DNA of 64,000 bases from Desulfofundulus kuznetsovii DSM 6115 (GTDB lineage Bacteria > Bacillota > Desulfotomaculia > Desulfotomaculales > Desulfovirgulaceae). Below, in pieces: positions 2,562 to 58,212 of the stretch; positions within the stretch are counted from its first letter, which is position 1, and each line of letters begins with the position of its first letter. Under the pieces are notes generated by a model. That model saw only the letters and a list, made by a program, of their open reading frames with translations, was not told where the DNA came from and searched no databases. The stretch spans positions 1,077,001-1,141,000 of the forward strand of contig NC_015573.1 in NCBI RefSeq assembly GCF_000214705.1, written 5' to 3'. Position numbers and translations under genes: made by a program.

Positions 2562-2624
2562 AGTATGGTTGAAAAATTCCAGCTTTATAACTGGTATATT
2601 TTAGGTATTATACAAATTGTAAAG

Positions 2625-7450: not shown

Positions 7451-8320
7451 ATGCTTGCGGAAGGGTTGGAGAAAAGCGGCGCATTTATGGGGAGTACCGG
7501 TGACTACAGGCGTGCCTCTGTAGTTATTCTGGGTGCTCCCCTGGATTTAACGGTGAGCTTCCGTCCGGGGACCCGTTTTGCCCCGGCCCAAATCCGCCAG
7601 GTGAGTGTAGGGCTGGAGGAGTACAGCCCCGCCCTGGAGCGGGACCTGGTTGATTATGCTTACTATGATGCGGGAGATATTGTCCTGCCCCCGGGGCGGG
7701 TCCAGGAAAGCCTTGGGCGCATTGGTGCCGCGGTGGCCGCTATCCTGGCCGACGGCAAGTTTCCTCTTTTGCTCGGGGGGGAGCACCTGATTACCCTGCC
7801 GGTGGTGGAAGCTCTATTTCGTTGTTATCCTGATCTGGCAGTGGTACACTTAGATGCCCACGCGGATCTCCGCGAAGAATATTTAAATGAAAGACTCTCC
7901 CACGCTACCGTAATGCGCCGGGTGGTGGAGATACTCGGAGCGCAAAATGTTTTTCAATTAGGCATCCGTTCCGGGACCCGGGAGGAGTTTTCCTACGGCC
8001 GGGCAAACACACATTTCTTTCCCGGAGAAATCCTGCGGCCTTTAACTCAAATTCGCACTAAGCTCAAAAGCCGGCCGCTTTATCTTACCTTGGACATAGA
8101 TGTCCTGGACCCGGCCTATGCCCCGGGGACGGGTACGCCGGAACCGGGGGGGTGTACGCCCCAGGAGGTCTTCCAGGCCCTTTACCTGCTGGCTGATTGC
8201 CGGGTGGTGGGTATGGATCTGGTAGAAGTGTGCCCGGTTTATGACCCTACGGAGCGCACATCCCTGCTGGCGGCTAAAATCGTCCGGGAAGCTATTTTAT
8301 GTTTTGGGCAAGGGAAGTGA
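7451..8320 (+). CDS. speB: Agmatinase / ureohydrolase family
   Basis: Mn-dependent ureohydrolase releasing urea from agmatine (or N1-aminopropylagmatine). The 289-aa product shows the metal ligands in order: LLGGEH, AVVHLDAHADLR (DxHxD) and LTLDIDVLDPAYAPGTGTPE (DxDxxDP), plus GMDLVEVCPVYD near the end. The start is the ATG 7 nt after GGGGGAAAG, and the preceding frame extension overlapping speE was rejected. It is the last gene of the pdaD-speE-speB operon; its stop lies 4 bp from the stop of the convergent protease gene. Confidence 0.93.
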   Translation: MLAEGLEKSGAFMGSTGDYRRASVVILGAPLDLTVSFRPGTRFAPAQIRQVSVGLEEYSPALERDLVDYAYYDAGDIVLPPGRVQESLGRIGAAVAAILADGKFPLLLGGEHLITLPVVEALFRCYPDLAVVHLDAHADLREEYLNERLSHATVMRRVVEILGAQNVFQLGIRSGTREEFSYGRANTHFFPGEILRPLTQIRTKLKSRPLYLTLDIDVLDPAYAPGTGTPEPGGCTPQEVFQALYLLADCRVVGMDLVEVCPVYDPTERTSLLAAKIVREAILCFGQGK

Positions 8321-8324
8321 ACTT

Positions 8325-14186: not shown

Positions 14187-16070
14187 ATGGCAAATTTTGA
14201 AACGGTAGAAGTCAGTACTGATCTATTGATAATTGGTGGTGGTATGTCCGCTTGCGGCGCCGCCGTGGAAGCTGCCTACTGGGCTAAAAAGCACGGCCTC
14301 AAAGTCACCCTGGTGGATAAAGCCGCTATGGACCGCAGTGGTGCCGTGGCCATGGGCCTGTCCGCTATTAACCTCTACATCGGCCAGGCTGCCGGCGACA
14401 ACACCGTTGAGGACTACGTCCGTTATGTCAGACAGGACCTCATGGGCATTACCAGGGAGGACCTGGTTTACAGCATCGCCCGCCACGTTGACTCCACCGT
14501 GCACCTGTTTGAAAAGTGGGGTCTGCCCATCTGGAAAGACGAGAACGGCAAGTACGTCCATGAAGGCCGCTGGCAGATCATGATCAACGGTGAGTCCTAC
14601 AAGATCATCGTTGCCGAAGCTGCGAAGAACGCCCTGAATGCCCTCGGTCCCGACAACATCTACGAGCGCGTGTTCATCGTGGAGCCCCTGATGGATGGCG
14701 ACCGCTGTGTTGGCGCCGTCGGCTTCAGCGTCCGCGAGAACAAGTTCTATGTCTTCAAAGCAAAGGCCGTTCTGGTGGGCATGGGTGGTGCCGTGCACGT
14801 ATTCCGGCCCCGTTCCACCGGCGAGGGTCTCGGCCGCTCCTGGTATCCACCTTTCAACACCGGTTCCAGCGCCTACTTCACGCTGAAGGCCGGCGCCGAA
14901 ATGACCTGCCAGGAAGTGCGCTTCATTCCTGTGCGTTTCAAGGATGCCTACGGTCCGGTGGGTGCCTGGTTCCTGCTCTTCAAGTCCGTGGCCACCAACG
15001 CCCTGGGCGAGGACTACATGAAGACCCACCCGGATGTGCTTGAGCAGTATGCTCCTTACGGCCTGACCAAGCCCATCCCCGCCAACCTGCGGAACCACCT
15101 GGGTCTCATTGACGAAAGAGCCGGCAAGGGTCCCATCTACATGAGGACTGAGGAAGCCATTCAGCGCCTGGCCCAGGAAATGCCCGACGAGAAGCAGCGC
15201 AAGAAGAAGCTTAAGGAACTGGAAGCCGAAGCTTGGGAAGACTTCCTCGACATGACCATTTCCCAGGCCCTGCTGTGGGCGGCTACCAATACCTTCCCCG
15301 AGGAGAAGCCCTCTGAAATTGCCGCCTGCGAGCCTTACTTCATCGGTTCGCACTCCGGTGCTTCCGGCGCCTGGGTCAGCGGTCCCGAGGACATTGCCCC
15401 GGCCGAGTATCAGTGGGGCTACACCAACATGTCCACTGTCAAGGGCTTGTTCTGTGCCGGCGACGCTTCCGGTGCTTCCAGCCACAAGTTCTCCTCCGGT
15501 TCCTTCACTGAGGGGCGGATTGCGGCCAAGTCTGCCATCCGGTTCATCGTGGAGAACAACGAGGAACCCAAGGTGGACGCGGCCCAAATTGAAGAACTGA
15601 AGGCCAGGATCCTGAAGCCGCTGGACACCTTCGAGCAGTACAAGGGCATGACCACCGATCCGGATGTGAACCCGAACTACATCCGTCCGAAGCAGTTCAT
15701 GTTCCGGCTGCAGAAGATCATGGATGAGTATGCCGGCGGGGTATCCAAGTCCTTCACCACCAACAAGTACCTGCTCGAAAGAGGCCTGGAGCTGTTGGCA
15801 ATGCTGAAGGAGGACTCGGAGAAACTGGCTGCCGAAAGCCTGCATGAACTCATGCGGTGCTGGGAGAACGTCCACAGGATGTGGCAGGCTGAGGCCCATA
15901 TCAGGAGCGTGCTGTTCCGCGAAGAAACCAGGTGGCCCGGCTACTACATCAGGGCGGACTTCCCGAACCTGGACGAAGAGAACTGGAAGTGCTTCGTCAA
16001 CTGCCGCTGGGATCGCAACACCGGGCAATGGGAAGTCTTCAAGCGGCCCGTCATCTCCATCATTGACTAA
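14187..16070 (+). CDS. aprA: Adenylylsulfate reductase, alpha subunit
   Basis: FAD-containing catalytic subunit that reduces APS to sulfite and AMP. The 627-aa protein of the fumarate-reductase flavoprotein family has the dinucleotide fold LLIIGGGMSACGAAVEAAYW, a long substrate domain, and SHKFSSGSFTEGRIAAKSA at the FAD-binding C-terminal side. Length and order match dissimilatory AprA. The start follows GAGGAGGT 21 bp after aprB. A very long open frame on the opposite strand is only a codon-usage shadow. Confidence 0.98.
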   Translation: MANFETVEVSTDLLIIGGGMSACGAAVEAAYWAKKHGLKVTLVDKAAMDRSGAVAMGLSAINLYIGQAAGDNTVEDYVRYVRQDLMGITREDLVYSIARHVDSTVHLFEKWGLPIWKDENGKYVHEGRWQIMINGESYKIIVAEAAKNALNALGPDNIYERVFIVEPLMDGDRCVGAVGFSVRENKFYVFKAKAVLVGMGGAVHVFRPRSTGEGLGRSWYPPFNTGSSAYFTLKAGAEMTCQEVRFIPVRFKDAYGPVGAWFLLFKSVATNALGEDYMKTHPDVLEQYAPYGLTKPIPANLRNHLGLIDERAGKGPIYMRTEEAIQRLAQEMPDEKQRKKKLKELEAEAWEDFLDMTISQALLWAATNTFPEEKPSEIAACEPYFIGSHSGASGAWVSGPEDIAPAEYQWGYTNMSTVKGLFCAGDASGASSHKFSSGSFTEGRIAAKSAIRFIVENNEEPKVDAAQIEELKARILKPLDTFEQYKGMTTDPDVNPNYIRPKQFMFRLQKIMDEYAGGVSKSFTTNKYLLERGLELLAMLKEDSEKLAAESLHELMRCWENVHRMWQAEAHIRSVLFREETRWPGYYIRADFPNLDEENWKCFVNCRWDRNTGQWEVFKRPVISIID

Positions 16071-16114
16071 CCAATAGCCTTATCAAACGGCTACCTGTCT
16101 GCATATATGATGAG

Positions 16115-16140
16115 AGCCGTGGCTGTTCGCGGCCACGGCT
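16115..16140 (+). terminator. Hairpin between aprA and qmoA (possible attenuator)
   Basis: Stem AGCCGTGGC/GGCCACGGCT with a 7-nt loop, followed by TAACCCTTATTTTT. The U-tract is interrupted, so partial termination separating apr from qmo expression is more likely than a full stop. Confidence 0.5.
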
Positions 16141-16183
16141 TAACCCTTATTTTTCAAAAACTAACTTGCGACGGTGATGAGAT

Positions 16184-17425
16184 ATGGGTAATAAGAGCAT
16201 CCTGGTGGTTGGAGGGGGAATAAGCGGGTTAACTGCTGCTATTGAGGCTTCAGAGGTAGGCTATGAAGTCTTTATTATTGAGAAAAATCCTTACCTTGGC
16301 GGCAGGGTAGCCCAGATGAATCAATATTTTCCCAAGCTTTGCCCCCCGAACTGCGGTTTGGAGATCAACTTCCGCAGGATAAAGAGCAATCCCAGAATCC
16401 GTTTCCTAACGCTGGCCGAGGTTACGGGAGTTTCCGGTCAGGAAGGGGATTTTGAGATTAAAGTAAAAATCCATCCCCGCTATGTCAATGAGAATTGTAC
16501 CGCCTGCGGCAAATGTGTAGAGGTGTGCCCGGAGGAAAGAAAGAATACCTTCAACTACGGTCTGGATAAAACCAGGGCCATTTATTTACCACACCTTTTT
16601 GCCTTCCCCATGAAGTATGTTATTGATGCAGAGGCCTGCTCGAAATGCAATAAATGTGTCGAGGTATGTCCGGTTAATGCCATCGATTTGAATATGGAGC
16701 CCAAGGAGATGACTTTAAGGGTTGGTTCCATTATCTGGGCAACCGGCTGGAACCCGTATGATGCCTCCAAGATTGGATATTACGGCTTTGGCCAGTATGA
16801 AAATGTCATTACCAACGTGATGCTGGAAAGGCTGGCCGCTTCCAATGGTCCCACCCAGGGCAAGATCCTGCGCCCTTCCGACGGCAAACCGGTGGAACGG
16901 GTGGCTTTTGTACAGTGCGCCGGTTCCCGGGATGAAAATCACCTGCCCTATTGTTCGGGTGTTTGCTGCCTCGCATCTTTAAAGCAGGCAACCTATGTCA
17001 TCAATCAAAATCCCAATGCTCAAGTTTACATTTATTTCATTGATGTCCGGGCGCTGGGTAAATTTGAGGACTTTTACGCGAAAGTAAAAGATAATCCGAA
17101 TATTCATTTAGTTAAAGGAAAAGCCGGCGACATCACCGAAGATCCGGCAACCAAGGATTTGACCGTGGTAGTGGAAGACCAGGAGACCCAGAAGTTAATG
17201 AAAGAGAAATTCGACCTGGTTGTTCTGGCGACCGGAATGGCGCCGGCCACAAGAGAGGCCAAAGCACCTGCGGATTTGGTTTACGATGAGAATGGCTTTG
17301 CGGTCGGTGGCGCGCCTGGTATATATAGCGCCGGCTGCGTGAGCAGGCCGATGGATGTGGCTTCCTGTGTCGAGGATGCAACTGCTGCTGCCCTCAAGGC
17401 TATTCAATCGACGGTGGGGAGGTAA
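16184..17425 (+). CDS. qmoA: Quinone-interacting membrane-bound oxidoreductase subunit A
   Basis: HdrA-like flavoprotein of the Qmo complex that links the quinone pool to APS reductase. In its 413 aa are an N-terminal FAD fold VVGGGISGLTAAIEASE, the HdrA-type CPPNCGLEINFRR segment, and two ferredoxin-like motifs CTACGKCVEVCP and CSKCNKCVEVCP. The C-terminal ATGMAPATREAKAP and SAGCVSRPMDVASCVEDA segments close the FAD domain. The start follows GGTGATGAGAT. It abuts qmoB directly (stop codon adjacent to the next ATG), indicating translational coupling. Confidence 0.95.
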   Translation: MGNKSILVVGGGISGLTAAIEASEVGYEVFIIEKNPYLGGRVAQMNQYFPKLCPPNCGLEINFRRIKSNPRIRFLTLAEVTGVSGQEGDFEIKVKIHPRYVNENCTACGKCVEVCPEERKNTFNYGLDKTRAIYLPHLFAFPMKYVIDAEACSKCNKCVEVCPVNAIDLNMEPKEMTLRVGSIIWATGWNPYDASKIGYYGFGQYENVITNVMLERLAASNGPTQGKILRPSDGKPVERVAFVQCAGSRDENHLPYCSGVCCLASLKQATYVINQNPNAQVYIYFIDVRALGKFEDFYAKVKDNPNIHLVKGKAGDITEDPATKDLTVVVEDQETQKLMKEKFDLVVLATGMAPATREAKAPADLVYDENGFAVGGAPGIYSAGCVSRPMDVASCVEDATAAALKAIQSTVGR

Positions 17426-26236: not shown

Positions 26237-26326
26237 GCCGGAGTGGCGGAACAGGCAGACGCACGGGACTTAAAATCCCGGGGGTGTTATGCACCCGTAC
26301 CGGTTCAAGTCCGGTCTCCGGCACCA
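26237..26326 (+). tRNA. tRNA-Leu (anticodon TAA), prophage attachment site
   Basis: 90-nt class II tRNA: acceptor GCCGGAG/CTCCGGC, discriminator A, encoded CCA; anticodon loop CTTAAAA; long variable arm GGGTGTTATGCACCC; T loop TTCAAGT. The prophage integrase starts 132 bp downstream, so the 3' end of this gene is the expected attachment core; the duplicate at the far end lies outside the window. Confidence 0.97.
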
Positions 26327-26413
26327 GTGAGATTTAAGGCCCCGGGGGATCTGCCCCCGGGGGTATAGCGTGAGATAAAGTGCGAATCCTGTAAGGCTGA
26401 CGAGACACACAGG

Positions 26414-26458
26414 ACACCTCCCTTTAGGCCAGTTGCCTGCAAAAGGGAGGTGTTTTTG
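26414..26458 (+). promoter_or_regulatory. Terminator-like hairpin that also buries the integrase ribosome binding site
   Basis: Perfect 12-bp stem ACACCTCCCTTT (26414-26425) / AAAGGGAGGTGT (26442-26453), 16-nt loop, then TTTTTG. The 3' arm contains GGGAGG, the only good ribosome binding site for the integrase GTG at 26458. It can act as the terminator of the tRNA-Leu transcript and as a translational block for any read-through. A second GC-rich hairpin (CCCCGGGGG/CCCCCGGGG, 26341-26364) precedes it. Confidence 0.7.
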
Positions 26459-27420
26459 TGTCCAGACGTAAAAAGTCCTGTGCGTCTGCCAGTTCCGCCA
26501 CTCCGGCGAGAAGCAGGGACAGTGGCGGCTGGCAGTCGGCAATGGAGAAGTTCCTGCGCTGGAAAGGCGCGCAGGCGGTTAGCGAGACTACTCTTGGTGA
26601 TTACCAACGGCATATTACCCGCTTCTTTCGCCGTTTCCCGGACGCCTGGGGTAGCGAGGACCGGTTGGAGCAGGCTGTCTTCCAGTATATGGGTGAGCCC
26701 GTGAAGCCTGCCACCTACAACCTGCGGCTGGTGTATCTGAAAGCGTTCTTCAAATGGTGCTGCGACAGAGGTATTATCGGCCAAAACCCGCTGGACGGGT
26801 TTAAGCGCCGAAAGGACGAAGGGCGTATTGTCCAGCTGGATCTGAGTGTTGTCAGGAAACTGCTTGACATGTGCGACACAAGGGTGTTTAGCGGCCTGCG
26901 GGATTACGCCCTGATCTTGGTCACCATTGATACCGGGATAAGGCCGGGTGAAGCATTTGCCCTGTTACCCCGGGATGTGAATTTGAGGAGCAGGGAAATA
27001 ACAGTGCGGGCTGAAATAGCCAAAACCCGAGTTAGCAGGACGCTGCCAATCATGCCGGTTACCGCCCAGGCTATAGCCGACCTGCTGGCCGCACGCGATC
27101 CCAGTTGGGGCGAACAGGTGCCGGTGTTCTGCACTTGGGAGGGCACGCCGCTGAATAGACATACCTGGGGCGACCGGTTGGAAGAGTATAGCAAAAGGCT
27201 GGGAGTTAAGATCAGGCCATACGATCTGAGGCATACTTTCGCCCTGAACTTCCTAAGAAGTGGTGGCAATGTCTTTGCCCTGCAGCGCACCTTGGGCCAC
27301 GCTGACTTGACAATGACCAAGCGCTACCTGGCTTTGACGCAGGACGACATAAAGGCGCAGCACGCTGCGGCCTCCCCGGTTAACCAGCTGGTGAGGCGCA
27401 GGAGACGTCGGCTAAGGTAG
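26458..27420 (+). CDS. int: Prophage integrase (tyrosine recombinase)
   Basis: 320-aa recombinase expected to act at the 3' end of tRNA-Leu. A 28-residue basic N-terminal extension (MSRRKKSCASASS...) precedes a core-binding domain (about 29-115: EKFLRWKGAQAVSETTLGDY, FFKWCCDRGIIGQNPLDGF) and a catalytic domain with TGIRPGEAFALL (Arg), RPYDLRHTFALNFL (HxxR), TLGHADLTMTKRYLAL (GH and Tyr). GTG 26458 was chosen because GGGAGG lies 7 nt upstream; the ATG at 26542 lacks a good site. Codons 6-17 coincide with an inverted copy of the tRNA-Leu 5' half. Confidence 0.92.
   Translation: MSRRKKSCASASSATPARSRDSGGWQSAMEKFLRWKGAQAVSETTLGDYQRHITRFFRRFPDAWGSEDRLEQAVFQYMGEPVKPATYNLRLVYLKAFFKWCCDRGIIGQNPLDGFKRRKDEGRIVQLDLSVVRKLLDMCDTRVFSGLRDYALILVTIDTGIRPGEAFALLPRDVNLRSREITVRAEIAKTRVSRTLPIMPVTAQAIADLLAARDPSWGEQVPVFCTWEGTPLNRHTWGDRLEEYSKRLGVKIRPYDLRHTFALNFLRSGGNVFALQRTLGHADLTMTKRYLALTQDDIKAQHAAASPVNQLVRRRRRRLR
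26473..26507 (-). repeat. Inverted copy of the 5' half of tRNA-Leu inside int
   Basis: These 35 nt are the reverse complement of tRNA-Leu positions 26237-26271 with two mismatches (26479 and 26491). The copied portion covers the acceptor 5' strand, the D arm and the 5' side of the anticodon stem. It is read as coding sequence for the integrase N-terminal extension. Confidence 0.9.
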
Positions 27421-30331: not shown

Positions 30332-30568
30332 TCAGCGCGTCTGGGAATCATTCCTGTTTGACTGGTTAGCTTCATTGGTGGCCTTCTTCGCAACCCACCG
30401 GATCAATTGGGGGACGGCGTCGGCGGCCGCCTCGACACTGAGGAGGCCCAGGCAGCCCAATACGAATGCCTGCAGGGCCTCGGCGGGGAAGGACGGGTCG
30501 AGGCTTTGCGCAAAAGCCGCAATCCCAGCGACGAGGGCCACGGTAAGGCGAATCCATTGCCTTTTCAC
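30332..30568 (-). CDS. Holin-like small membrane protein, 78 aa
   Basis: MKRQWIRLTVALVAGIAAFA begins a first hydrophobic helix; a second runs through ALQAFVLGCLGLLSVEAAAD; the tail is hydrophilic (NEANQSNRNDSQ). Two helices, a short length and a 4-bp overlap with the upstream amidase gene fit a class II-type holin that forms the membrane lesion for lysis. Sequence alone does not prove it. It is the last late gene on this strand. Confidence 0.65.
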   Translation of the reverse strand: MKRQWIRLTVALVAGIAAFAQSLDPSFPAEALQAFVLGCLGLLSVEAAADAVPQLIRWVAKKATNEANQSNRNDSQTR

Positions 30569-31188
30569 TTTACCATCACCACCCGTCCCGCTTCATTCCA
30601 TGACACCTGCCGGCCCAGCGCCTCGCAGATCGCCCGCACCGGCCCAAACACCTGCCCGTTTACCAAAGTTCCCTCAAACTCCCGGCCGCCCACCTGTATC
30701 CTCACACCGTCCTGTCCGGACGCACCACTGGTACCAGCTGTACCTGCTGGCCCACGGCCAGCCTTGATCTCCTCTAAAGGGAAATACCTTCCCGGGCAGG
30801 CGGTGGGATACAGGTCGCGGTGGCCCGCCACCCGGACGCCCGGGTAAATCCTCTTCAGGTATGCCACCAATTCCAACAGCGCACGCCACTGCGCAGGCGG
30901 CATGTGTTCCTGCTCATAATTGCCTTCGCAGCAGATACCTATGCTGCTTGCATTGTGTCCCGGACAATGGGCGCCTACGGTGTCGATTGGCCTGCCGCGG
31001 TAAACCCGGCCGTCCTTGGAGACGAAAAAGTGGTATCCACAGCCGGCCCAGCCCTTGTTCAAATGCCACTGGTGGACATCGTATACCGTGCACCTGCTGG
31101 CGTCGGCATGGTGCAAGACCAGGAAGTGTGTCTTACTCCGGCGGGCCGGCGTCTTGCGAAAGGCGAGGTTGGTTTCGGCAATTTGCAT
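30565..31188 (-). CDS. Endolysin: N-acetylmuramoyl-L-alanine amidase
   Basis: Amidase_2 (T7-lysozyme/PGRP-like) domain, residues about 20-150, which cuts the muramoyl-L-alanine bond of peptidoglycan. Zinc-ligand motifs: FLVLHHADA (first His), VAGHRDLYPTACPGRYF (second His and Cys), with YHFFVSKDGRVYRGRP between. The C-terminal ~45 residues (GREFEGTLVNGQVFGPVRAI, LGRQVSWNEAG) resemble a copper-amine-oxidase-N/stalk domain, here probably a wall-binding or spacer module. Start follows AGGAGTGGAGC. Holin-like gene overlaps its end. Confidence 0.92.
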   Translation of the reverse strand: MQIAETNLAFRKTPARRSKTHFLVLHHADASRCTVYDVHQWHLNKGWAGCGYHFFVSKDGRVYRGRPIDTVGAHCPGHNASSIGICCEGNYEQEHMPPAQWRALLELVAYLKRIYPGVRVAGHRDLYPTACPGRYFPLEEIKAGRGPAGTAGTSGASGQDGVRIQVGGREFEGTLVNGQVFGPVRAICEALGRQVSWNEAGRVVMVK

Positions 31189-31216: not shown

Positions 31217-31243
31217 TAAAGTCTGCGTGAGACATGTCGATTG
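31217..31243 (+). promoter_or_regulatory. Sigma-28 (SigD)-like promoter before csrA-flagellin
   Basis: TAAA (31217-31220), 15-bp spacer, GTCGATTG (31236-31243), against the flagellar sigma consensus TAAA-N15-GCCGATAT (TAAA exact; five of eight in the -10). It is 63 bp before the csrA start and directed toward it. Confidence 0.5.
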
Positions 31244-31306
31244 TAATTAGTGAACGCAGCGAAAAGCAGGGAAGCGGAAGCAGGTGCCAGGGACGGGGGT
31301 GGGAAG

Positions 31307-31486
31307 GTGCTGGTCCTTACCCGCAAGGAAGAAGAGGCGTTCATCATCGACGGCCGGGTAAAGGTGGTGATTCTGCAGATAGAAGGAAACCAGGTAAGTG
31401 TCGGCATCCAAGCGCCGAAAGACGTCCACATTGTGCGAGCCGAACTGGTTGAAAAGGACAGGGAACAGCAGGAAGAAACCACATAA
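31307..31486 (+). CDS. csrA: CsrA-family RNA-binding translational regulator
   Basis: 59-aa homodimeric RNA-binding protein that represses translation, in Firmicutes classically of flagellin mRNA. GTG start gives MLVLTRKEEEAFIIDGR; the longer frame was rejected because the family begins at this MLVLTRK. The RNA-contact residues are present: Leu4, Arg6 and the late Arg in APKDVHIVRAEL. GGGGGTGGGA precedes the start. It lies on the strand opposite the prophage late genes, directly upstream of a flagellin gene, mirroring the chromosomal csrA-hag order of many Firmicutes, but inside a prophage. Confidence 0.93.
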   Translation: MLVLTRKEEEAFIIDGRVKVVILQIEGNQVSVGIQAPKDVHIVRAELVEKDREQQEETT

Positions 31487-31625
31487 GGCACATGCCTCTC
31501 TCATGGACGGGGAGGTTAAATAAATCACAGGAGGTGAGTATTTCGGCTTCTCCGGCAGGTAATACCTGCCTCCCGCACACTGCGGCAGGGAAAGCTGAAG
31601 CTTTCCAGGGAAGCCGGGAAAAGTC
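31487..31625 (+). promoter_or_regulatory. Structured leader of the flagellin gene (possible CsrA target)
   Basis: 139 nt with several GGA motifs (GGACGGGGAGG, CAGGAGG, CCAGGGAAG) and two hairpins: GGCAGGTAATACCTGCC and GGAAAGCTGAAGCTTTCC, the second ending just before the start-proximal GGGAA. A 31-codon GTG frame starting in AGGAGGTGAG ends in a TGA overlapping the flagellin ATG, but its start abuts the binding site, so translation of it is doubtful. GGA in hairpin context is the known CsrA recognition feature; the target role is inferred. Confidence 0.45.
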
Positions 31626-32888
31626 ATGATCATCAACCATAACATCGCGGCGCTGAATACGTACAGGCAGTTGTCGACTAACAACATCCTGGCCAACAAG
31701 TCGTTGGAGAAACTCTCCTCGGGCCTACGCATCGTGCGCGCCGGGGACGACGCGGCGGGCCTAGCCATCAGCGAGAAAATGCGGGCACAGATCCGGGGCC
31801 TGAACATGGCCGCCAAAAATGCTCAAGACGGTATTTCCCTCATCCAAACTGCCGAAGGTGCATTGAACGAAACCCACTCCATCCTGCAGCGGATGCGCGA
31901 ACTGGCCGTCCAATCCGCCAGCGATACGAATATCGCTACCGACAGGGCAGAGATCCAAAAAGAAGTCGACCAGCTTGCACAAGAACTTGCCCGGATTGGC
32001 AACACTACCGAATTCAACACCCAGAAACTCTTGAATGGCACCTTTAAGGGCACCTTCCAGATCGGCGCCAACGAAAACCAGAACCTCTCACTGCAGATTA
32101 ACGACATGAGAGGATTCGCGCTGGGTGTAGTGGGTGATGTGACCTATACTGCTACTGGCACGGTTACTAATACAAATAGCAGCTTTAGCGATGGTACCTA
32201 CACGGTGAAATACGATTCAGCAAGTAGTAAATATCAGCTTGTTGACAGCAACGGTTTAGTAATCGCCACAAGTTCGGATGGTAAGACGTATACTGCCACA
32301 GCTGACGCCACCAGTACCGATAAGATTGCCTTCAATGATAAAGTCATCAGCGGCACTATTACCATTGACACGACCAAAGCTGAAGCCACTGGTACCGCCA
32401 CGGTAGACAACAAGCGTCTGGAAGCCGGAACATACACTTTGGATGCAACAAACAAGAAACTAATGGATTCTACCGGCCAGGTTATAGGCACATCTACGGA
32501 CGGGACGAAGTATGTGGATGCAGCCGGAAATGAGCTATTCACTTTGGGTGCTACTCTTAGTGGTAATATCACGCTTGAAGTAAAGGGTGTCGACGTATCG
32601 AGTCAGCAAGCGGCCAACACCGCCATTACCACCATCAACAACGCCATCGAGAAAGTATCTGCCGAACGCTCCAAACTGGGCGCCTACCAGAACCGACTTG
32701 AGCACACGATCAACAACCTGGGCACTGCTTCCGAAAACCTTTCTGCCGCCGAGTCCCGCATCCGCGACATTGACATGGCCAAGGAAATGATGGAATACAC
32801 CAAGCTCTCCATCCTGCAGCAGGCCGCCACGGCTATGCTCAGTCAAGCCAACCAGCAGCCTCAGATGGTGCTGCAGCTCCTTCGGTAA
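31626..32888 (+). CDS. hag: Flagellin
   Basis: Complete 420-aa flagellin, the filament subunit exported by the flagellar type III system. Conserved D0/D1 N-terminus (MIINHNIAALNTYRQLSTNN, SSGLRI, AGDDAAGLAISEKMR) and C-terminus (RIRDIDMAKEMMEYTKLSIL, QPQMVLQLLR) are intact. The variable centre (about residues 170-325) consists of two related beta-rich units, each with a GTYT...DSxGxVIxTSxDG pattern. Located in the prophage between tail genes and the endolysin, on the opposite strand. The TTC-rich leader gives only a modest ribosome binding site (GGGAA). Confidence 0.95.
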   Translation: MIINHNIAALNTYRQLSTNNILANKSLEKLSSGLRIVRAGDDAAGLAISEKMRAQIRGLNMAAKNAQDGISLIQTAEGALNETHSILQRMRELAVQSASDTNIATDRAEIQKEVDQLAQELARIGNTTEFNTQKLLNGTFKGTFQIGANENQNLSLQINDMRGFALGVVGDVTYTATGTVTNTNSSFSDGTYTVKYDSASSKYQLVDSNGLVIATSSDGKTYTATADATSTDKIAFNDKVISGTITIDTTKAEATGTATVDNKRLEAGTYTLDATNKKLMDSTGQVIGTSTDGTKYVDAAGNELFTLGATLSGNITLEVKGVDVSSQQAANTAITTINNAIEKVSAERSKLGAYQNRLEHTINNLGTASENLSAAESRIRDIDMAKEMMEYTKLSILQQAATAMLSQANQQPQMVLQLLR

Positions 32889-32906: not shown

Positions 32907-32940
32907 CAGGCCTCCCGCCAAACCGGGAGGCCTGTTCTTG
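32907..32940. terminator. Terminator between flagellin and the convergent tail operon
   Basis: 11-bp stem CAGGCCTCCCG/CGGGAGGCCTG with a 6-nt loop, followed by TTCTTG. It probably serves both strands and insulates csrA-hag from the late genes. Confidence 0.8.
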
Positions 32941-32952
32941 TGCAGCAAACCT

Positions 32953-33246
32953 TTACAACCTACCCTCCACCTTATCTTTGATCAATTCACTCACCAGCAC
33001 CCGCCCGTCGGCAAAGCGCACTTCCAACTCCATAAGCAGCACGCCCGGAGAGGCGAAGTCCTCTCCGGTAGCGACGTACTTCACCACTCCGCCGGCCCGG
33101 TCGGCAAAGCTGCATAACCTCTCCACTCTGACGCCGTTTAAAGACATGATCAGCCTGGCCTCCAGGGCGGTAGTCAAATCCACCGGCTGGCCGCTTTCAT
33201 CCTTAATGGTAAACAGCAGTTCGACTCCCACGCTGCCCTGCTTCAT
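32953..33246 (-). CDS. Small tail/baseplate-associated protein, 97 aa
   Basis: MKQGSVGVELLFTIKDESGQ followed by beta-rich sequence (VDLTTALEARLIMSL, GVLLMELEVRFADG) resembles the N-terminal beta-sandwich of BppU-like baseplate or receptor-binding proteins, typically 90-100 aa. Its ATG overlaps the stop of the preceding Kelch protein by 4 bp, so it is translationally coupled to it and probably attaches to or assists the same tail-tip structure. Assignment is by pattern only. Confidence 0.6.
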   Translation of the reverse strand: MKQGSVGVELLFTIKDESGQPVDLTTALEARLIMSLNGVRVERLCSFADRAGGVVKYVATGEDFASPGVLLMELEVRFADGRVLVSELIKDKVEGRL

Positions 33247-35036
33247 GATTCATGCCACCTGCCTTTAACCATTACCTCAAACGCCCGCCGCAGCACCACA
33301 CCTGCTTCATAGACAGCCCTCGTCCGACAGGCCGCGTCATAGAATACCTGCATTCCACTCTCGGCCCAGGCGGTAACTATCCTCATGGCGTCGGCAGCCG
33401 CGGCCTCCAGTATACCCACGGCCCGCTGCAGGTCGCCTCTCACGGAAACGCCCACGCTTACCAGCCTGGTGGCGTCGGCAGACAATAGAGACAATAAGCC
33501 GACTAACCGCAGCCCGTCGGCCTGAAGGGTAGCCAAAGAGGACACATGCCTCAAACTATCGCCCGAAAGTGACTCTATTCGGTAAAGCCCGCGCAGGGCG
33601 TCGAAGCGCCCATTAAATCCCGTTCCTGCCAGCCTGAAGGTGTCGGCGGGTACCTGTACAATCCCACCCGCCAGGCGCCTGGTATCACAGGCCGGTTGGA
33701 CAGCTATTTGCACCCTCCTTAACGTATCGGCGCCCACCGAAGCCGTAATACCTATCGACACTTCCCGGGCGGTATCGGAGAATAGTTCCGCTACCACACC
33801 TGCCCGCCGGAGGACGTCGAACCCGGCGTACCCTTCTACTCCTGTTTGCCTCAAACAGTCGGCAAACAGGAAGTCCACTATTGAAGCATACCTGGCCGTA
33901 TCGTATAAGCCGGATTCTACCGCACCGGCAAGACGCATGGTATCGCCCACCACGGAAGCCGCCGCGCCCGCAAGGCGCATGGTGTCGCCGGTCATAGAAG
34001 CCACTATACCGGCTACCCGCGTGGTATCGCTGGCCATACTCAAGGCCGCTGCGGCGGCCCTTACGGTGTCCGCCGCTACCAGGCCGGCCTGTGCCAAACG
34101 GCGCACCGTATCTGCCACCACAGTGACGGCCTCGCCCAGGGAGGCGTACCAGACGTCGTTGAAATAACCGCTACTGTTAATGGGGTTATTGCAGCCACCT
34201 AGCACCCATATCCTGCCGTTGGCCACCACTGAGGTGTGGCCACTTCTCGCCGTCCACGCAGCAGCCGAGGTGTCCTGGGTCCAGGTGGAACCGTTGGTGG
34301 AGTACCAGACGTCGTTGTGGTAGGCATTACTGCTGCCTCGGCCACCCAGCACCCAGATACGGCCATCAGAGGTTACTACGGAGGTGTGGATATATCTTGC
34401 AGTCCACGAAGCAGCAGAGGTAGCCTGGGTCCAAGCGGAACCACCGGTGGAGTACCAGACATCTTTGTAGTAGGTACTACCATCATATCCGCCCAGCACC
34501 CATATCCTGCTGTCGGGTGTGACTACAGAGGTATGACCACCTCTTCTTATCCATGAAGCACCTGCAGTGGCCTGGGTCCAGGAGGAACCGTCTGTGGAGT
34601 ACCATACATCGTTTGCGTAGTACGGCGATGTACTTATTGCTCCTCCCAATACCCATATTCTGCCGTCAGAAGTGACTACAGAGGTGTGGGCGCTTCTGGC
34701 AGTCCAGGAAGCAGCCGAGGTAGCTTGGGTCCAGGTGACGCCATCTGTGGAATACCAGACGTCGTTGCAGCGGATACTGCCAGTATACCCGCCTAACATC
34801 CACATCCTGCCGTCTGGGGTAACTACAGAGGTGTGGGCGTTTCTGGCGGTCCAACCAGCACCAGACGTAGCTTGGGTCCAGGAAGAACCGTTAGAGGAGT
34901 ACCAGACGTCGTTGTAGCGGACACTACCATTATACCCTCCTAACACCCATATCCTGCCGTCTGAGGTGACTACAGAGGTGTGGCCAAATCTTGCTACCCA
35001 CCCGGCGTTAGGTGCCTGCACCCACTGGAGGGCCAT
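33243..35036 (-). CDS. Kelch-propeller tail protein 1, 597 aa
   Basis: Residues 1-300 hold six repeats of about 50 aa, each with HTSVVTSDGRIWVLGG then NDVWYSTDGSSWTQAT: a six-bladed beta propeller of the Kelch/galactose-oxidase type. From about 300 to 580 the chain switches to short repeats of 14-16 aa with a core DTxRxAG (for example VVGDTMRLAGAVESGLYDTA), probably a fibrous or helical stalk. A plausible receptor-binding or glycan-binding tail protein. Starts after AAGGAGG. Strongly related to the N-terminal 290 residues of the protein at 39749-42862. Confidence 0.8.
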   Translation of the reverse strand: MALQWVQAPNAGWVARFGHTSVVTSDGRIWVLGGYNGSVRYNDVWYSSNGSSWTQATSGAGWTARNAHTSVVTPDGRMWMLGGYTGSIRCNDVWYSTDGVTWTQATSAASWTARSAHTSVVTSDGRIWVLGGAISTSPYYANDVWYSTDGSSWTQATAGASWIRRGGHTSVVTPDSRIWVLGGYDGSTYYKDVWYSTGGSAWTQATSAASWTARYIHTSVVTSDGRIWVLGGRGSSNAYHNDVWYSTNGSTWTQDTSAAAWTARSGHTSVVANGRIWVLGGCNNPINSSGYFNDVWYASLGEAVTVVADTVRRLAQAGLVAADTVRAAAAALSMASDTTRVAGIVASMTGDTMRLAGAAASVVGDTMRLAGAVESGLYDTARYASIVDFLFADCLRQTGVEGYAGFDVLRRAGVVAELFSDTAREVSIGITASVGADTLRRVQIAVQPACDTRRLAGGIVQVPADTFRLAGTGFNGRFDALRGLYRIESLSGDSLRHVSSLATLQADGLRLVGLLSLLSADATRLVSVGVSVRGDLQRAVGILEAAAADAMRIVTAWAESGMQVFYDAACRTRAVYEAGVVLRRAFEVMVKGRWHES

Positions 35037-39748: not shown

Positions 39749-42700
39749 TCAGGGCACTACGGGAGTAATATTCATACGGACAAATGACTCGTCTTCGTCC
39801 TTCCAGTTGAGGAATTTGACTGAAGCAGGATTGGTGGAACGGAAGCGGACTGCTTTGCCGGCGGGCAGAGTCAGGGTCTGGCTGCTTACCTCTTTCCATG
39901 CCCCCCATAACGGCCTCCTGTAGCCGAGTATTATGTCTCCCGTATCACTCCAGGCCAGCATTTCAGACGCGATACCCGAGAACTTGTACATGTTGTACCA
40001 CAGGCCTGGAGTACCGGTGCCGGTGGCCTCTGCCTGGAAGCAGAGTAAGTTCAGGCCATATTTGAGGGGGCCGTACCCTACCCAGCACTGGTAGTTGTAC
40101 CTGTAGTCCGGCTGTGTGCCGTCCACCACCAGCACGCCGTTGAGGTAGGCCTTGAAGCGGGCGTACCTGCTTTCGCAGTTTAGACTAATGCGTTCCCAGG
40201 GTGAATCGAGGTAAAACGGCTGCCTGTAGTAAATGGTGCCGTGGGCGGCGCTGCCGTCACCAGCAGGCGCCCAAATGTATACGGAATAAATACCTTCATA
40301 GTAGGTTTGTATCGCTTTATCCCACGAACTGTCGTCGTAGTCCAGCTTAAGCCACCCTGTTTCACCTTCATAGAGGGCGTAGTACAGGCCCTTGTAAGGC
40401 AGGGCAAACCGGGTAACCGTACCTGCAGGGAAGACTGTGGGGGACAGGTGCTGGACCTGGCGATCACTGGGAGTGGGTATGAGACATAGAGTATCCTGAT
40501 CCTGGGGCCATAGCTTGGCCTTTGCAGCCTGTTCAATTTCCCAATCCTCGCGTGCCCTGACGGATACCCTTATATTGCTGTATTGGGCTGCGCCTGTATT
40601 AATGGAAGCTATTTGTTCACCCGTCAGTAGAGGTGCGCCGTCCTCAACCTGCTTCACTCCACCCACAAACAGGGCACAGCCGGCCCGCGACCACCTGAAG
40701 GCTACGGGCAGTTCCTGTCCTGTTTGCCATGCACAGGAGGCTATCAGTTCTACTGGGCCGTCCGGCCCGCGGTAAGTAGCTTTCACCTGCCCGGGCGGGC
40801 GTTCAATTATGAGGCATTCACCCCAGGTAATATCCGTACAGGCATTTGCGTCCGCGGGTATTACTGTAAACTCCAGGGTGCCCTCTCCCTTCCCGGTGGG
40901 CACCGTTTCTACTTGTGTGACAAACAGAGAGACAAGTGGCGTGTTTACTGTCAGTTTGACGGCAAAGGAGGTCGCATACGGGCTGACTGAGAGTATTCTC
41001 TGTTCGGTGGCTGCCGTATAGCTTACCCTTGCGTAGATAAGCTGGGCAGAATTGAAAGTGTAATATGTGTTATTGGAAACCGACTGCCTGGTGGACGCCT
41101 GCAGGACTACAGGATTGTTTACCTCTAACTCTACTGCAAGCTTGTTTATTCTCGTATTGGAGACGGACAGTTGGGTACTGCAGAGGTACTCTACGGGCCT
41201 GACAAGCAGTATATCTATCGAGGTGGCAAATGTGCTTGCGACAGGGCTGCCAATCTCCAGCTTAACGCCGGCAAGCGTTTCACGCGAACTTCCAATTGCC
41301 TGCCTGGCGGCGTATGCGGAAGTTACAGGGTTGCCTATAGCCTGGGCGGTACCGAGGGTTAACCATACTTCCGTTCTTATCTCCTGCCTGGTGGCATAGG
41401 TGGAAACCGCAGGGCTGCCTACAGACTGGGTGGTACCGAAGGAGAACTCTACCTTAGCGCCTACTTCTTGCCTGGTAGCGCCCGTGGAAGCAACGGGGTT
41501 GTGGATAGTGGTGTAGGAAGCAAAGGGCCACTCCACCCTGGTGCCTATCTCCTGCCGGGTGGTATAGGTGGAAGCCACGGGGTTGCATACAGACTGGGTG
41601 GTGCCGAAGGAGAACTCTACTTCAGCACTCACTACCTGCCTGGTGGCGCCGGCGAGGGTTGCCGGTGTGCTTACGGCAATGAAGCAGGGGAACTCGTATT
41701 CAACAGAAGCGGCTGTATAGTCCGATATGATTGCCTCACCGAAGAGGTCCGGTGGGCGGCCATAGGTCGTGATAGTGCCGTTTATGATATGGTGGCCGCG
41801 GTGGTTTACCACCGGGATACCAAACGTACGCTGGACGCCCTTTTCCTCCACTATCAGCTTGACGGCGCCGGTGAGGGTGGCGGGATTGGATACCGTCTGG
41901 CGGGTGGCGCCGGTGAGGGTCGCGGCGTTGGAGACTATCTGCATGGTACTGCCTGTTACATTGTGGGTGGTGCCTTCGGGCAAACCGCACCAGACGTCGT
42001 TTAGATAGGTGCTGCCAGTGGAACCGCCAAGGACGTATATGTTGTTGCCAGAGGCGACTGCTTTATGGCCACTCCTGGCCGCCCAGAGGGCAGCCGAGGT
42101 ATCCTGAATCCAGGAAGAACCATCTGCGGTATACCAGACGTCATTGTAATAGGTGCCGTTGTAACTGCCGCCGAGGACCCAGAGTTTGCCGTCGGCTGTG
42201 ACGGCGGCGGCATGGAGGCCGCGGACTCTCCAGGAAGCCGCCTGCGTCCAGCTGACACCATTGGTTGAGTACCAGACGTCACTGTAGTAGTAGGTGGTGC
42301 CGCCGCTTCCAACGTAGTAGCCGGCTATAACCCATATGCGGCCATCTGGCGTTACTGCGGAAGCATGGTACGCCCTGCCATCCCAGGCTGCGCTGTAAGT
42401 GGCCTGTGTCCAACTGGATCCGTTAGTGGAGTACCAGACGTCATTACGGTAGGCGCTGCCGTCCCAGCCGCCGATTACCCATATCTTACCGTCAGGCGTA
42501 ACTACAGAGGTGTGGCCAGATCTTGCTACCCAGGAAGCACTCGACGTGGCCTGGGTCCAGCTAATGCCGTCGGAGGAGTACCAGACGTCATTGAGGTTGC
42601 TACCACCATATCCTCCGATAACCCAGATACGCCCGTCTGACGTGACTGCTGAAGTATGGTAAACCCTTGCTGCCCACGAAGCAGCGGCGGTAGCCTGCGT

Positions 42701-42862
42701 CCAGGTGGATCCGTCAGTGGAATACCAGACGTCGTTTTTATACCCGGCGCTGGTGTAGCCGCCGAGTATCCATATCCTGCCGTCTGGCGTGATTACAACA
42801 GAATGGCCTGTCCTGCCCGCCCAGGGGGCAGCAGTGGTAGTTTGTACCCATTGGAGGGGCAT
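39749..42862 (-). CDS. Kelch-propeller tail protein 2 (large), 1037 aa
   Basis: Residues 1-290 are six Kelch-type blades (HTSAVTSDGRIWVIGGYGGS, NDVWYSSDGISWTQATSS) closely like those of the 597-aa protein. Residues ~295-640 contain many 20-22 aa repeats built on VSNPATLTGATRQTV and ASTYATRQEIGT. The C-terminal 400 residues form a separate beta-rich region (YCSNIRVSVRAREDWEI-like QYSNIRVSVRARED, then SPWERISLNCESRYARFKAY and GTPGLWYNMYKFSG), resembling jelly-roll carbohydrate-binding modules. Best explained as the main tail spike or adhesin. Starts after AAGGAGG. Confidence 0.8.
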   Translation of the reverse strand: MPLQWVQTTTAAPWAGRTGHSVVITPDGRIWILGGYTSAGYKNDVWYSTDGSTWTQATAAASWAARVYHTSAVTSDGRIWVIGGYGGSNLNDVWYSSDGISWTQATSSASWVARSGHTSVVTPDGKIWVIGGWDGSAYRNDVWYSTNGSSWTQATYSAAWDGRAYHASAVTPDGRIWVIAGYYVGSGGTTYYYSDVWYSTNGVSWTQAASWRVRGLHAAAVTADGKLWVLGGSYNGTYYNDVWYTADGSSWIQDTSAALWAARSGHKAVASGNNIYVLGGSTGSTYLNDVWCGLPEGTTHNVTGSTMQIVSNAATLTGATRQTVSNPATLTGAVKLIVEEKGVQRTFGIPVVNHRGHHIINGTITTYGRPPDLFGEAIISDYTAASVEYEFPCFIAVSTPATLAGATRQVVSAEVEFSFGTTQSVCNPVASTYTTRQEIGTRVEWPFASYTTIHNPVASTGATRQEVGAKVEFSFGTTQSVGSPAVSTYATRQEIRTEVWLTLGTAQAIGNPVTSAYAARQAIGSSRETLAGVKLEIGSPVASTFATSIDILLVRPVEYLCSTQLSVSNTRINKLAVELEVNNPVVLQASTRQSVSNNTYYTFNSAQLIYARVSYTAATEQRILSVSPYATSFAVKLTVNTPLVSLFVTQVETVPTGKGEGTLEFTVIPADANACTDITWGECLIIERPPGQVKATYRGPDGPVELIASCAWQTGQELPVAFRWSRAGCALFVGGVKQVEDGAPLLTGEQIASINTGAAQYSNIRVSVRAREDWEIEQAAKAKLWPQDQDTLCLIPTPSDRQVQHLSPTVFPAGTVTRFALPYKGLYYALYEGETGWLKLDYDDSSWDKAIQTYYEGIYSVYIWAPAGDGSAAHGTIYYRQPFYLDSPWERISLNCESRYARFKAYLNGVLVVDGTQPDYRYNYQCWVGYGPLKYGLNLLCFQAEATGTGTPGLWYNMYKFSGIASEMLAWSDTGDIILGYRRPLWGAWKEVSSQTLTLPAGKAVRFRSTNPASVKFLNWKDEDESFVRMNITPVVP

Positions 42863-51693: not shown

Positions 51694-52250
51694 TTACCTG
51701 GTGGTCATGCGTTTTAAGGCAAGCAGGTCGTCTAATGTGGCAGGTTGGCCCGCAAGAGGTTTGTCTTTACTGTCAGGCGAGTTGATTCTAGCATGCACCT
51801 CAAGCAGGGCGTGGAGCTTGCGCGGAGTGCACCGCCAAAACTCCTCCTCGGACATGCCGAGGATTACCGTGCCTGCGTAATACAAAAAGGCCCAGTCCCA
51901 CGGGGAGGAACTGGATAGCTTGGAGGTTACTGCAGAGGAACGTTTTTTGGGACTTCAGGCATGGCGCTGATAAGGGCTTGTGTCAACTGTTCGCCCAGAG
52001 AAGGAAGATCAGCTAAAGTGAGTAATTCACCTACTTTCTCGGGTGTGAGCTCTGGATCTTCGTGCGCCAGGCCTGCATAAAGCACGGCACGCAGGGCTTT
52101 GATGGAGCCCTTGGCGAGGGCGTTGAGGCATTCCTCGACTGTTTGGTAGTAGTCTTCTAACAGGGCGAAGCTGTTTAAGGAAAAGAACAAGTGATACTGC
52201 CTCTCGCCAATTACGACTGGTATCTTCTTAGGCCGCACAGGGTTCGACAT
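51694..52250 (-). CDS. Tail assembly chaperone, long form made by -1 frameshift (185 aa)
   Basis: Product of the 51927-52250 gene extended by a -1 shift at the heptamer at 51942-51948. After the shift the frame stays open and reads WDWAFLYYAGTVILGMSEEE, FWRCTPRKLHALLEVH, a typical second-half sequence of siphovirus tail chaperones. The offset between the two frames is exactly -1, and no stop intervenes. The long form (gpGT equivalent) would bind the tape measure during tube assembly; it ends about 130 bp before the tape measure gene. Confidence 0.8.
51927..52250 (-). CDS. Tail assembly chaperone, short form (107 aa)
   Basis: MSNPVRPKKIPVVIGERQYH with helical core (FSLNSFALLEDYYQTVEECL, PEKVGELLTLADLP) resembles phage tail assembly chaperones (gpG-like). 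Located between the major tail protein and tape measure. Its AGGAGG lies inside the end of the upstream homing endonuclease gene, which overlaps it by 23 bp. The last codons contain the slippery heptamer that generates the long form. Confidence 0.82.
   Translation of the reverse strand: MSNPVRPKKIPVVIGERQYHLFFSLNSFALLEDYYQTVEECLNALAKGSIKALRAVLYAGLAHEDPELTPEKVGELLTLADLPSLGEQLTQALISAMPEVPKNVPLQ
51942..51948 (-). promoter_or_regulatory. Slippery heptamer A AAA AAC for -1 frameshifting
   Basis: On the minus strand CCA AAA AAC is in frame with the short chaperone, giving the classical X XXY YYZ heptamer; the zero-frame stop follows 5 codons later. Confidence 0.82.
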
Positions 52251-53073
52251 GCTTACGTGCCTCCTTGAACTTGAGATAGAGTTGGTATTTACGTGTCAGA
52301 TGGATGGTGGAGTCGCGGTAGAGGTAATCCAGGATGCGTTCCACCTGACGGTTACCGCCGTACTGCAGGTAATATATGTCTTTACATCGGGTAATCTTGA
52401 TTTGTCTCAAGTCACACTCCCTCATCAGAATCTGCTGGGCGGTATGTACAAACTCAAATGTGCCGCACAAACCACAGTGCCATGTGTTATCCCGCCCACA
52501 GCACAAATACCCATCGCCATCAAAGTAGCCGCGGATAAAGTGGTTTAACAAATCGTCCGGTACGGTAGTCGGAAACCGGAGTGTCTTAGATTTACGCGGC
52601 GTGCACCCGTGTTTTATAAGGCCTTGTGCCAGCTTATAACTGCAAACGTTTATTGCAACCAGCGGCTGGATATTATAACTTCCCTTACTCCTTTTTGAAG
52701 CGGGTATTATACGAATGGGCGCGTTTGAACCAATTGCTATCGCGAATTTGAATATATGCGCTGCATCTTTAAGTTGGAGACTAAGATGAACCAAGGCATT
52801 CCCGGCTTTCCCTAGATAGATGCAACCATCAGCCATTAGAAAACCCAACCAATATGCCTTAGCCTCCGAATCAATGCAATCAAAGAAGCTGTCGTCCACG
52901 GTGTAATGGCGATAACTATCATAACCGCGACGGCAAATACCGCGCCGTTCTAAAATCCTGTACACTGTCGCAAAGTGAATGTCCAACATACGGCTAATCT
53001 CAGTACCCGTGGAACCCTCGAGATAAAGTCTGCATACCTCGTCGCATACAGCTTCTGGCAATGGTGCTGGCAT
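52228..53073 (-). CDS. LAGLIDADG homing endonuclease 1 with N-terminal HTH, 281 aa
   Basis: Free-standing homing endonuclease. N-terminal resolvase/HTH-like segment (CRLYLEGSTGTEISRMLDIH, FATVYRILERRGI), then two LAGLIDADG-type helices, YWLGFLMADGCIY and HFIRGYFDGDGYL, each with the acidic catalytic residue. CGLCGTFEFVHTAQQIL and YYLQYGGNRQVERILDYLY are shared with the second endonuclease at 57083-58075. It is inserted between the major tail protein and tail chaperone, and its 3' end overlaps and carries the chaperone's ribosome binding site. Confidence 0.92.
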   Translation of the reverse strand: MPAPLPEAVCDEVCRLYLEGSTGTEISRMLDIHFATVYRILERRGICRRGYDSYRHYTVDDSFFDCIDSEAKAYWLGFLMADGCIYLGKAGNALVHLSLQLKDAAHIFKFAIAIGSNAPIRIIPASKRSKGSYNIQPLVAINVCSYKLAQGLIKHGCTPRKSKTLRFPTTVPDDLLNHFIRGYFDGDGYLCCGRDNTWHCGLCGTFEFVHTAQQILMRECDLRQIKITRCKDIYYLQYGGNRQVERILDYLYRDSTIHLTRKYQLYLKFKEARKHVEPCAA

Positions 53074-58075: not shown

Positions 58076-58080
58076 CAAGG

Positions 58081-58212
58081 TCACCTCGTCTTCTTCTTGC
58101 GCTTCCTCTCAGGCAAAGCCTTAAACGACTTCGTCTTCTCTGCCCACTCCCGGGCCCAGGGCTGTTTCGTGGCAAACGCCCAGCGCCACTGGCGCTTACT
58201 CTTGAACGGCAT
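58081..58212 (-). CDS. Small basic phage protein, 43 aa
   Basis: MPFKSKRQWRWAFATKQPWA..., ending KRKKKTR. The ATG follows GGAGGCGGTAGCA inside the end of the portal gene, which it overlaps by 17 bp in another frame. The KSKRQWRWAFATKQPWA and TKSFKALPERK segments recur in small proteins next to portal genes of many phages, as I recall; function unknown. Very rich in Lys and Arg, so nucleic-acid binding is possible. Confidence 0.75.
   Translation of the reverse strand: MPFKSKRQWRWAFATKQPWAREWAEKTKSFKALPERKRKKKTR

Follow-up and report, generated by a model that had tools for sequence, protein, structure and literature searches.

A prophage-borne csrA-flagellin cassette in Desulfofundulus kuznetsovii and its possible role in flagellin exchange

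A pair of genes for the RNA-binding regulator CsrA and for flagellin lies inside an integrated phage of Desulfofundulus kuznetsovii DSM 6115, within a stretch of 64,000 nucleotides (positions 1,077,001 to 1,141,000 of contig NC_015573.1, or G000:C1:1077001-1141000 in our numbering, from a 3.60-Mb single-contig genome) that is called the window here. The two genes, written csrA′ and hag′ to set them apart from the resident copies on the same chromosome, form a compact cassette with a promoter-like sequence and a structured leader (Table 1). The cassette is assigned to a prophage because phage genes (integrase, tape measure, major tail, major head, portal and terminase) are present and a perfect 62-bp repeat of the tRNA-Leu 3′ end bounds the locus; the right copy of the repeat (65394-65455) is found 1.4 kb past the window end, and the two copies mark an element of about 39.1 kb. 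The initial annotation, made from the letters of the window alone, had described a complete csrA and a complete flagellin gene in a prophage, on the strand opposite to their neighbours and with a translational regulator of the phage's own, and each part of this description is borne out: the repeat is of the att type and present at both ends, the cassette is on the plus strand with the amidase and kelch-repeat genes on the minus strand, csrA′ is complete with its RNA-binding residues, and hag′ has both conserved ends, as seen from its Flagellin_N and Flagellin_C matches and its alignment with the resident flagellin.

Table 1. Features of the cassette and its surroundings (window coordinates; GGA positions are counted from the flagellin start).
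Feature	Position	Strand	Basis or remark
Promoter of sigma-D/sigma-28 type, TAAA-N15-GTCGATTG	31217..31243	+	Sequence pattern; TAAA at 31217-31220, GTCGATTG at 31236-31243
csrA′, short CsrA of 59 aa, GTG start	31307..31486	+	Pfam CsrA 1.2e-19; without FliW-contact residues
Hairpin with ATGGAC in the loop, GGA at about -121	31494..31516	+	Possible CsrA site away from the ribosome site
Small hairpin TCAC-AGGAG-GTGA, GGA at about -96	31525..31537	+	Possible CsrA site
Structured flagellin leader, pairing the GGAs at -37, -17 and -9	31541..31624	+	Predicted fold
hag′, phage flagellin of 420 aa, complete ends, own central domain	31626..32888	+	Flagellin_N 2.1e-46, Flagellin_C 1.5e-31
Terminator-like hairpin, 11-bp stem, weak T tail (TTCTTGTG)	32907..32934	+	Hairpin scan
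Phage amidase (endolysin), upstream neighbour of the cassette	30565..31188	-	Homologous fragment at the same place in G200
Phage gene next to the flagellin	32953..33246	-	81% DNA similarity to G200 extends into the gene
Kelch-repeat phage protein	33243..35036	-	
attL-like repeat, 3′ end of tRNA-Leu (taa, 26237-26326)	26266..26327	+	Exact 62-bp repeat; tRNA prediction
Tyrosine integrase of the prophage	26458..27420	+	

The Pfam CsrA domain covers residues 1-50 of the 59 residues of CsrA′. The RNA-binding residues, also reported as intact by the initial annotation, are kept as the LVLTR motif and R44; L4, R6 and R44 are RNA contacts of the CsrA/RsmA family, whose members bind GGA-loop RNA as dimers, and R44 is invariant and R6 nearly so in an alignment of 12 CsrAs, the CsrA of Bacillus phage EZ-2018a being without R6. 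The role of R44 is also given in PMC7829508. FliW binding requires V51 and N55 in Campylobacter CsrA and N55 in Bacillus subtilis CsrA (PMC7829508). CsrA′ has D51 and Q55 and no C-terminal extension, and thus lacks the marks of a FliW-regulated CsrA. The combination of V or I at position 51 with N55 is found in none of 20 cassette CsrAs (53-76 aa), in none of nine CsrAs sampled from 21 chromosomal second pairs (see below), and in 17 of 18 fliW-linked CsrAs sampled from at least 30. Length follows the same division in a survey of 299 genomes across the phylum, where 28 of 29 further loci were readable (L124 was not parsed): in each of the four loci that have no fliW closer than about 1.5 kb, CsrA is short (59-65 aa) and a flagellin gene follows at most 1 kb downstream, and the 24 fliW-linked loci have CsrAs of 69-87 aa. 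By sequence, the cassette CsrA is FliW-blind, and since the FliW-contact residues are lost, FliW should not switch CsrA′ off.

The resident locus of the same genome carries fliW, csrA (82 aa), IS200/IS605-like genes including TnpB, and hag (418 aa). The comparison with the chromosomal hag, which the initial annotation had proposed, indicates that the middle differs: identity of the two flagellins is 88-90% at the ends (77-78% in DNA) and 43% in the middle. For the N-terminal 165 residues dN is 0.086 and dS 1.94, the latter near saturation, and dN/dS over the ends ranges from 0.04 (NG86) to 0.07 (YN00), again with dS above 1.2 and near saturation. Judged by these ratios, the flagellin ends are under purifying selection, and because the low dN/dS at the ends goes with a divergent centre, the phage flagellin can be regarded as old and maintained by selection, with an exposed middle of its own. 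Among the first 72 residues, which suffice for FliW binding in B. subtilis (PMC6070490), 68 are identical between the phage and resident proteins. In a tree of the N-terminal region, built without L116 (no start), the window flagellin pairs with that of its own host (100/97), in a topology that is weakly resolved with 18 of 36 inner branches open. At the resident locus (L006), the IS200/IS605-like genes lie between csrA and hag (reverse strand 2033-4003) and the D, E, D motifs of TnpB look present by eye; about 275 bases 3′ of the resident hag, a 42-base stretch resembling a flagellin C-terminus suggests a remnant of another flagellin gene.

A flagellar-sigma-type promoter before csrA′ had been proposed as well, and such a promoter is not only present but recurs in relatives. 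The strict pattern TAAA-N14..16-NNCGAT, which we take to be the sigma-D (sigma-28) consensus, was scanned in the 120 bases 5′ of csrA in 24 regions; it occurs in 18 of 21 cassettes (exceptions L033, L034 and L187) and in none of three fliW-linked controls. Five of the 21 cassettes came from an earlier set, in four of which the pattern had already been seen; without these five the count is 14 of 16. Shuffling the 24 regions 300 times yields 0.34 occurrences on average and never more than 3, so that the promoter exceeds chance. Of the insulation by a terminator proposed in the initial annotation, the hairpin with its 11-bp stem after the flagellin stands, but its tail is weak, and 5 terminator-like sites are counted in the region where 3.3 (sd 1.8) are expected.

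Cassettes of this kind have been found in other viruses. Three loci, all with csrA just upstream, came from a search of viral contigs for flagellin, and an alignment search gave 19 loci including the same three. With Bacillus phage EZ-2018a (L036) added, csrA lies directly upstream in nine of the 20 flagellin-bearing viral loci tested (L033, L034, L035, L036, L043, L044, L045, L046 and L053) and not in the other 11; the CsrA profile held L033-L036 as rows, which match by construction, and five of the other 16 loci matched. L053 has a different, longer CsrA (a 210-aa frame) and counts among the nine but not among the short cassettes. Ten neighbouring genes were checked against PHROGs, with L034 and L043 outside the check: terminase and portal were found at L044, endolysin and holin at L045, endolysin at L046 and at L061, terminase at L033, exonuclease at L035 and ribonucleotide reductase at L036, and the L033 gene at 15355-16548 had no match. 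Among 12 phage records with a flagellin match, four were fetched and one (EZ-2018a) has csrA. The CsrA of L035 had no match in plasmids and phages, and a second viral scan with phage-type CsrAs gave only two loci, both known already. Three unannotated scaffolds named 'Bacteriophage sp.' (L037-L039) with flagellin matches were rejected as cassettes; they resemble bacterial DNA, having flagellar or housekeeping neighbours by eye and no csrA match.

A scan of named genomes with an alignment of three phage-type CsrAs gave six loci, of which five are cassettes (Cytobacillus firmus, Scopulibacillus darangshiensis, Virgibacillus sp., Halobacillus litoralis and Halobacillus sp. Nhm2S1) and the sixth, in Clostridium algidicarnis, is an ordinary fliW-csrA locus. 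A clear prophage, with tape measure, major head, minor head and portal genes, has the cassette of Halobacillus sp. Nhm2S1 at its end. On the Cytobacillus contig, a helicase loader and a DNA invertase belong to phage families, which is not decisive; the surroundings in Virgibacillus and H. litoralis look chromosomal by eye for about 20 kb on each side, and none of three proteins scanned there matched a structural phage protein; the Scopulibacillus locus was read by eye only. At L061, a Halobacillus prophage cassette, two tandem flagellin genes are seen (8249-10182).

The same csrA-hag pair at this locus in strains free of the prophage would have spoken against the reading of the initial annotation. 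Five congeners have one match each to the window CsrA, and the only near-identical copy found elsewhere, in G200 of another family (f18), adjoins remnants of a related prophage. The G200 locus holds tRNA-Leu, fragments of an integrase and of an amidase homologous to that of the window, the promoter, a CsrA of 62 aa and the flagellin; the latter is about 90% identical to that of the window in ends and middle alike, and the DNA similarity of 81% runs beyond the flagellin into the next phage gene. G200 keeps a decayed prophage related to that of the window.

Short csrA-hag pairs are also found on chromosomes. Within the taxonomic order that includes Halobacillus, the best 30 loci among 299 genomes were examined: three are fliW-linked and 27 have no fliW beside csrA, 26 of the latter with a downstream flagellin. 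The 25 readable CsrAs of these 27 loci have 54-83 residues (L173 could not be parsed, and the csrA of L178 contains an in-frame stop), and fliW is present in all 24 genomes checked. A chromosomal class accounts for 21 of the 27 (within L165-L190); in all 19 genomes checked, the pair and fliW share a contig and lie at most about 56 kb apart, mostly 2-18 kb, a distance met by none of five cassette-like loci. The strict promoter occurs in five of the 27 loci, the chromosomal class being without it. These chromosomal second pairs of Bacilli share with the cassettes a short CsrA without FliW contact (nine of nine tested), a leader hairpin and the flagellin, but differ in a csrA-hag gap of mostly 160-200 bases, in having no strict promoter in the 130 bases upstream and in their nearby fliW. 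The csrA-hag module is thus not exclusive to phages and is best called mobile, accessory and often phage-borne. In two genomes (G070:C64 and G271:C23), two short-type csrA genes stand close together with two large flagellins.

The leader of hag′ differs from that of the resident flagellin in its predicted fold. The region 31487-31640 folds strongly (z -3.8), and its near-start GGAs at -37, -17 and -9 have predicted unpaired values of 0.00, 0.00 and 0.11; in the resident leader, a GGA at -41 lies in an open hairpin loop, of which the window leader has no near-start counterpart. In folds of 125 bases, an open near-start GGA is found in four of four resident leaders and in 12 of 14 cassette leaders, the exceptions being L034 and the window. 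Covariation in leaders of the window type is thin (three rows, with two pairs showing double changes and six a broken row). A 45-codon open reading frame runs through the leader from ATG at 31492 to TGA at 31629, and its stop overlaps the flagellin start (ATGA); it was considered as a candidate for translational coupling.

The most likely reading of this element is a flagellin-exchange cassette of a prophage, in which a FliW-blind CsrA would restrain the flagellin of the host while the phage flagellin is made, and we give this reading a probability of a little under one half (about 0.46). On the evidence of the promoter sequence, the flagellar sigma factor of the host would read csrA′ and hag′ together as flagella are built. 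CsrA′, insensitive to FliW, would bind the GGA hairpin of the host flagellin leader and lower its translation. The phage flagellin, which keeps the N-terminal region for FliW binding, may sequester FliW and so release the resident CsrA of the host, and its own leader, with the near-start GGAs paired, is predicted to be less open to CsrA than that of the host, with GGA loops remaining upstream. The filament would then consist partly or wholly of phage flagellin, with a common core and a different exposed domain, the middle being 90% shared with G200 and 43% with the resident protein. The initial annotation had likewise put forward a change of the filament, with phage resistance or immunity as conceivable effects. 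Over time the resident flagellin may be lost and the cassette kept, as the gene content of relatives, mostly drafts, suggests.

The flagellin linked to a short csrA is the only one found in seven of 34 genomes (G010, G011, G175, G200, G374, G484 and G428). FlgL was separated from flagellin by score, length and place, manually, and many of the genomes are drafts. The seven are divided into six of the 13 cassette genomes (G000, G009-G013, G175, G200, G484, G505, G358, G491 and G428), one of the 19 with a chromosomal second pair and none of the two others. In G200, score (101 bits) and length identify the other Flagellin_N match as FlgL, and fliD is the gene after the chromosomal fliW-csrA. In G175, which carries the cassette, neither fliW nor a long csrA is present, and the second match adjoins FlgK by eye. 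In G010 and G011, fliW-csrA is followed by fliD, or by a small gene and fliD, with no flagellin there. Two kinds of interrupted primary flagellin were not counted as lost. The Halobacillus chromosomal flagellins L089 and L090 look truncated but hold group I introns (Rfam RF00028) near their 3′ ends, which interrupt the genes; no such intron was reported in the cassette locus scanned, L061. In G408 (G408:C14:561006-561696) the fliW-side flagellin appears to be in two pieces, one with a stop, and an intact short csrA-hag lies 55 kb away; an intron is possible there too, as in Halobacillus.

A serious alternative, above all for the cassettes of Bacilli, is that CsrA′ limits only its own csrA′-hag′ messenger, as a feedback replacing FliW control, so that the pair would be a self-contained alternative flagellin and filaments would be mixed; we hold this to be possible, though on the doubtful side. 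It draws support from the leaders of flagellins linked to a short csrA. A GGA lies 33-52 bases 5′ of the flagellin start in 35 of 36 leaders (16 from cassettes and 19 from chromosomal second pairs), in a range set after the leaders had been inspected. The set of leader positions left out L185 (duplicate), L169 (no GGA in range), the window, G200 and G175, and L179, L180 and L190 gave no flagellin start. An A stands two bases before the GGA (ANGGAN) in 34 of 35, and the flanks pair at 194 of 245 possible pairs, compared with 124.7 (sd 7.0) when the right arms are swapped and 89-100 when the registers are slid by 1 or 2; none of 5000 swaps was as high, but the leaders are kin to each other and the arm shuffle gives no strict probability. 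This covarying ANGGAN hairpin fits the kind of hairpin that CsrA binds. Further, 12 of 21 cassettes, and none of three controls, have an ANGGAG hairpin of at least four pairs at the ribosome site of csrA′, a count made without a shuffle test. A first hairpin scan was noisy, with eight of 14 cassette leaders at or below 25 of 500 shuffles (the window by way of its -121 hairpin) and only four of 14 csrA leaders beating 475 of 500.

Several of these observations weigh against the exchange reading. Because most cassette leaders show a near-start CsrA hairpin, escape of the flagellin leader from CsrA is not general, and self-repression is equally likely there; the asymmetry needed for a swap is a prediction for the near-start site only, in one case. 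G200 and G175, which have the same structured leader, carry GGA in the loop of the hairpin at 31573-31585, where the window has CAC. The window leader keeps GGA loops at -121 (ATGGAC) and -96 (AGGAG), which also favour self-limitation; taken by itself, the stretch 31494-31516 has a fold no stronger than that of its shuffles (z -0.99). The ribosome site of the window leader is likewise buried in the fold. Another flagellin is retained in 27 of the 34 genomes, and the loss of the primary one, seen mostly in drafts, has no control from genomes without a short pair. Self-limitation has to face, in turn, the paired near-start GGAs and the weak csrA′ site hairpin (two pairs) of the window, and the primary flagellin missing in six of 13 cassette genomes. 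Moreover, hairpins of this type are also present in host leaders, so that a CsrA blind to FliW should act on these too.

It is unlikely that CsrA′ is instead a general regulator of host takeover, acting on metabolism, on lysis-lysogeny or to turn motility off, with the flagellin captured alongside as a fellow traveller. Many phages do have csrA but no flagellin: matches to the window CsrA come from 36 phage records, of which 30 are from Vibrio, and no flagellin was found within the flanks of 17 viral loci examined. However, csrA and flagellin stay paired under a common flagellar-type promoter across unlike phages, and the flagellin is under purifying selection. That the pair is an inert host fragment, captured by chance and unexpressed, as the buried ribosome site might suggest, is most improbable in view of the intact genes, the dN/dS of about 0.04-0.07, the conserved promoter, the recurrence in many phages and the place of this flagellin as the only one found in G200 and G175.

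The rest of the prophage has features of its own. Two kelch-repeat proteins are encoded, at 33243-35036 and 39749-42862, which are perhaps variable receptor-binding parts; at the end of the former, an ADTLR-like unit is repeated many times. The structural gene block also encodes two proteins assigned to one PHROG (endonuclease, phrog_4645), at 52228-53073 and 57083-58084, and one chain at 61854-63101 combines a ParB-like domain with a DNA methyltransferase domain.

Flagellin carried by a temperate phage together with a flagellin regulator is described for the FRphi prophage of Enterobacter, which encodes TldR, an RNA-guided transcription factor shown to act on DNA, and the flagellin isoform FliCP (PMC13418256). 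As in FRphi, the flagellin of the window is inside an integrated phage; unlike it, the regulator is an RNA-binding CsrA, whose action here is proposed from sequence features, and the phylum is another. TldR-FliCP is the nearest precedent found. A tblastn search with the host TnpB (E 0.01) gave no match in the window or in 18 other cassette or related-pair loci; a remote TldR could escape one query, and no search for guide RNAs was made. Chromosomal csrA-tldR-fliC loci of Oscillibacter and Flavonifractor, where CsrA has been shown to bind the 5′ untranslated region of the TldR-targeted fliC, likewise place csrA beside an alternative flagellin, but they contain tldR and hin and are outside phages (PMC13418256). 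With the FliW-CsrA-Hag homeostasis of B. subtilis the cassette shares CsrA, flagellin and a GGA leader hairpin (PMC6529632, PMC6070490); it differs in having no fliW, a CsrA without FliW contact and a sigma-D-type promoter before csrA. No report of csrA-flagellin phage cassettes was found in the literature searched, whose coverage did not extend to subscription papers and preprints.

The cassette is real and recurrent, and the mechanism is plausible. It is a tentative proposal, less probable than not, that phages of Bacillota carry a module for swapping flagellin at the level of translation, and that this module has repeatedly become the only flagellin of its host, in at least one lineage after decay of the prophage. 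If this is true, viruses would use control of translation to remodel an essential surface machine of these bacteria, independently of the TldR-FliCP route of Enterobacter and as the RNA-binding-protein counterpart of that RNA-guided system, and a viral flagellin could become the host's permanently. The absence of FliW contact from some CsrAs, the origin of second flagellins, and the changes of lysogens in motility and in exposure to flagellum-binding phages would also become open to direct test.

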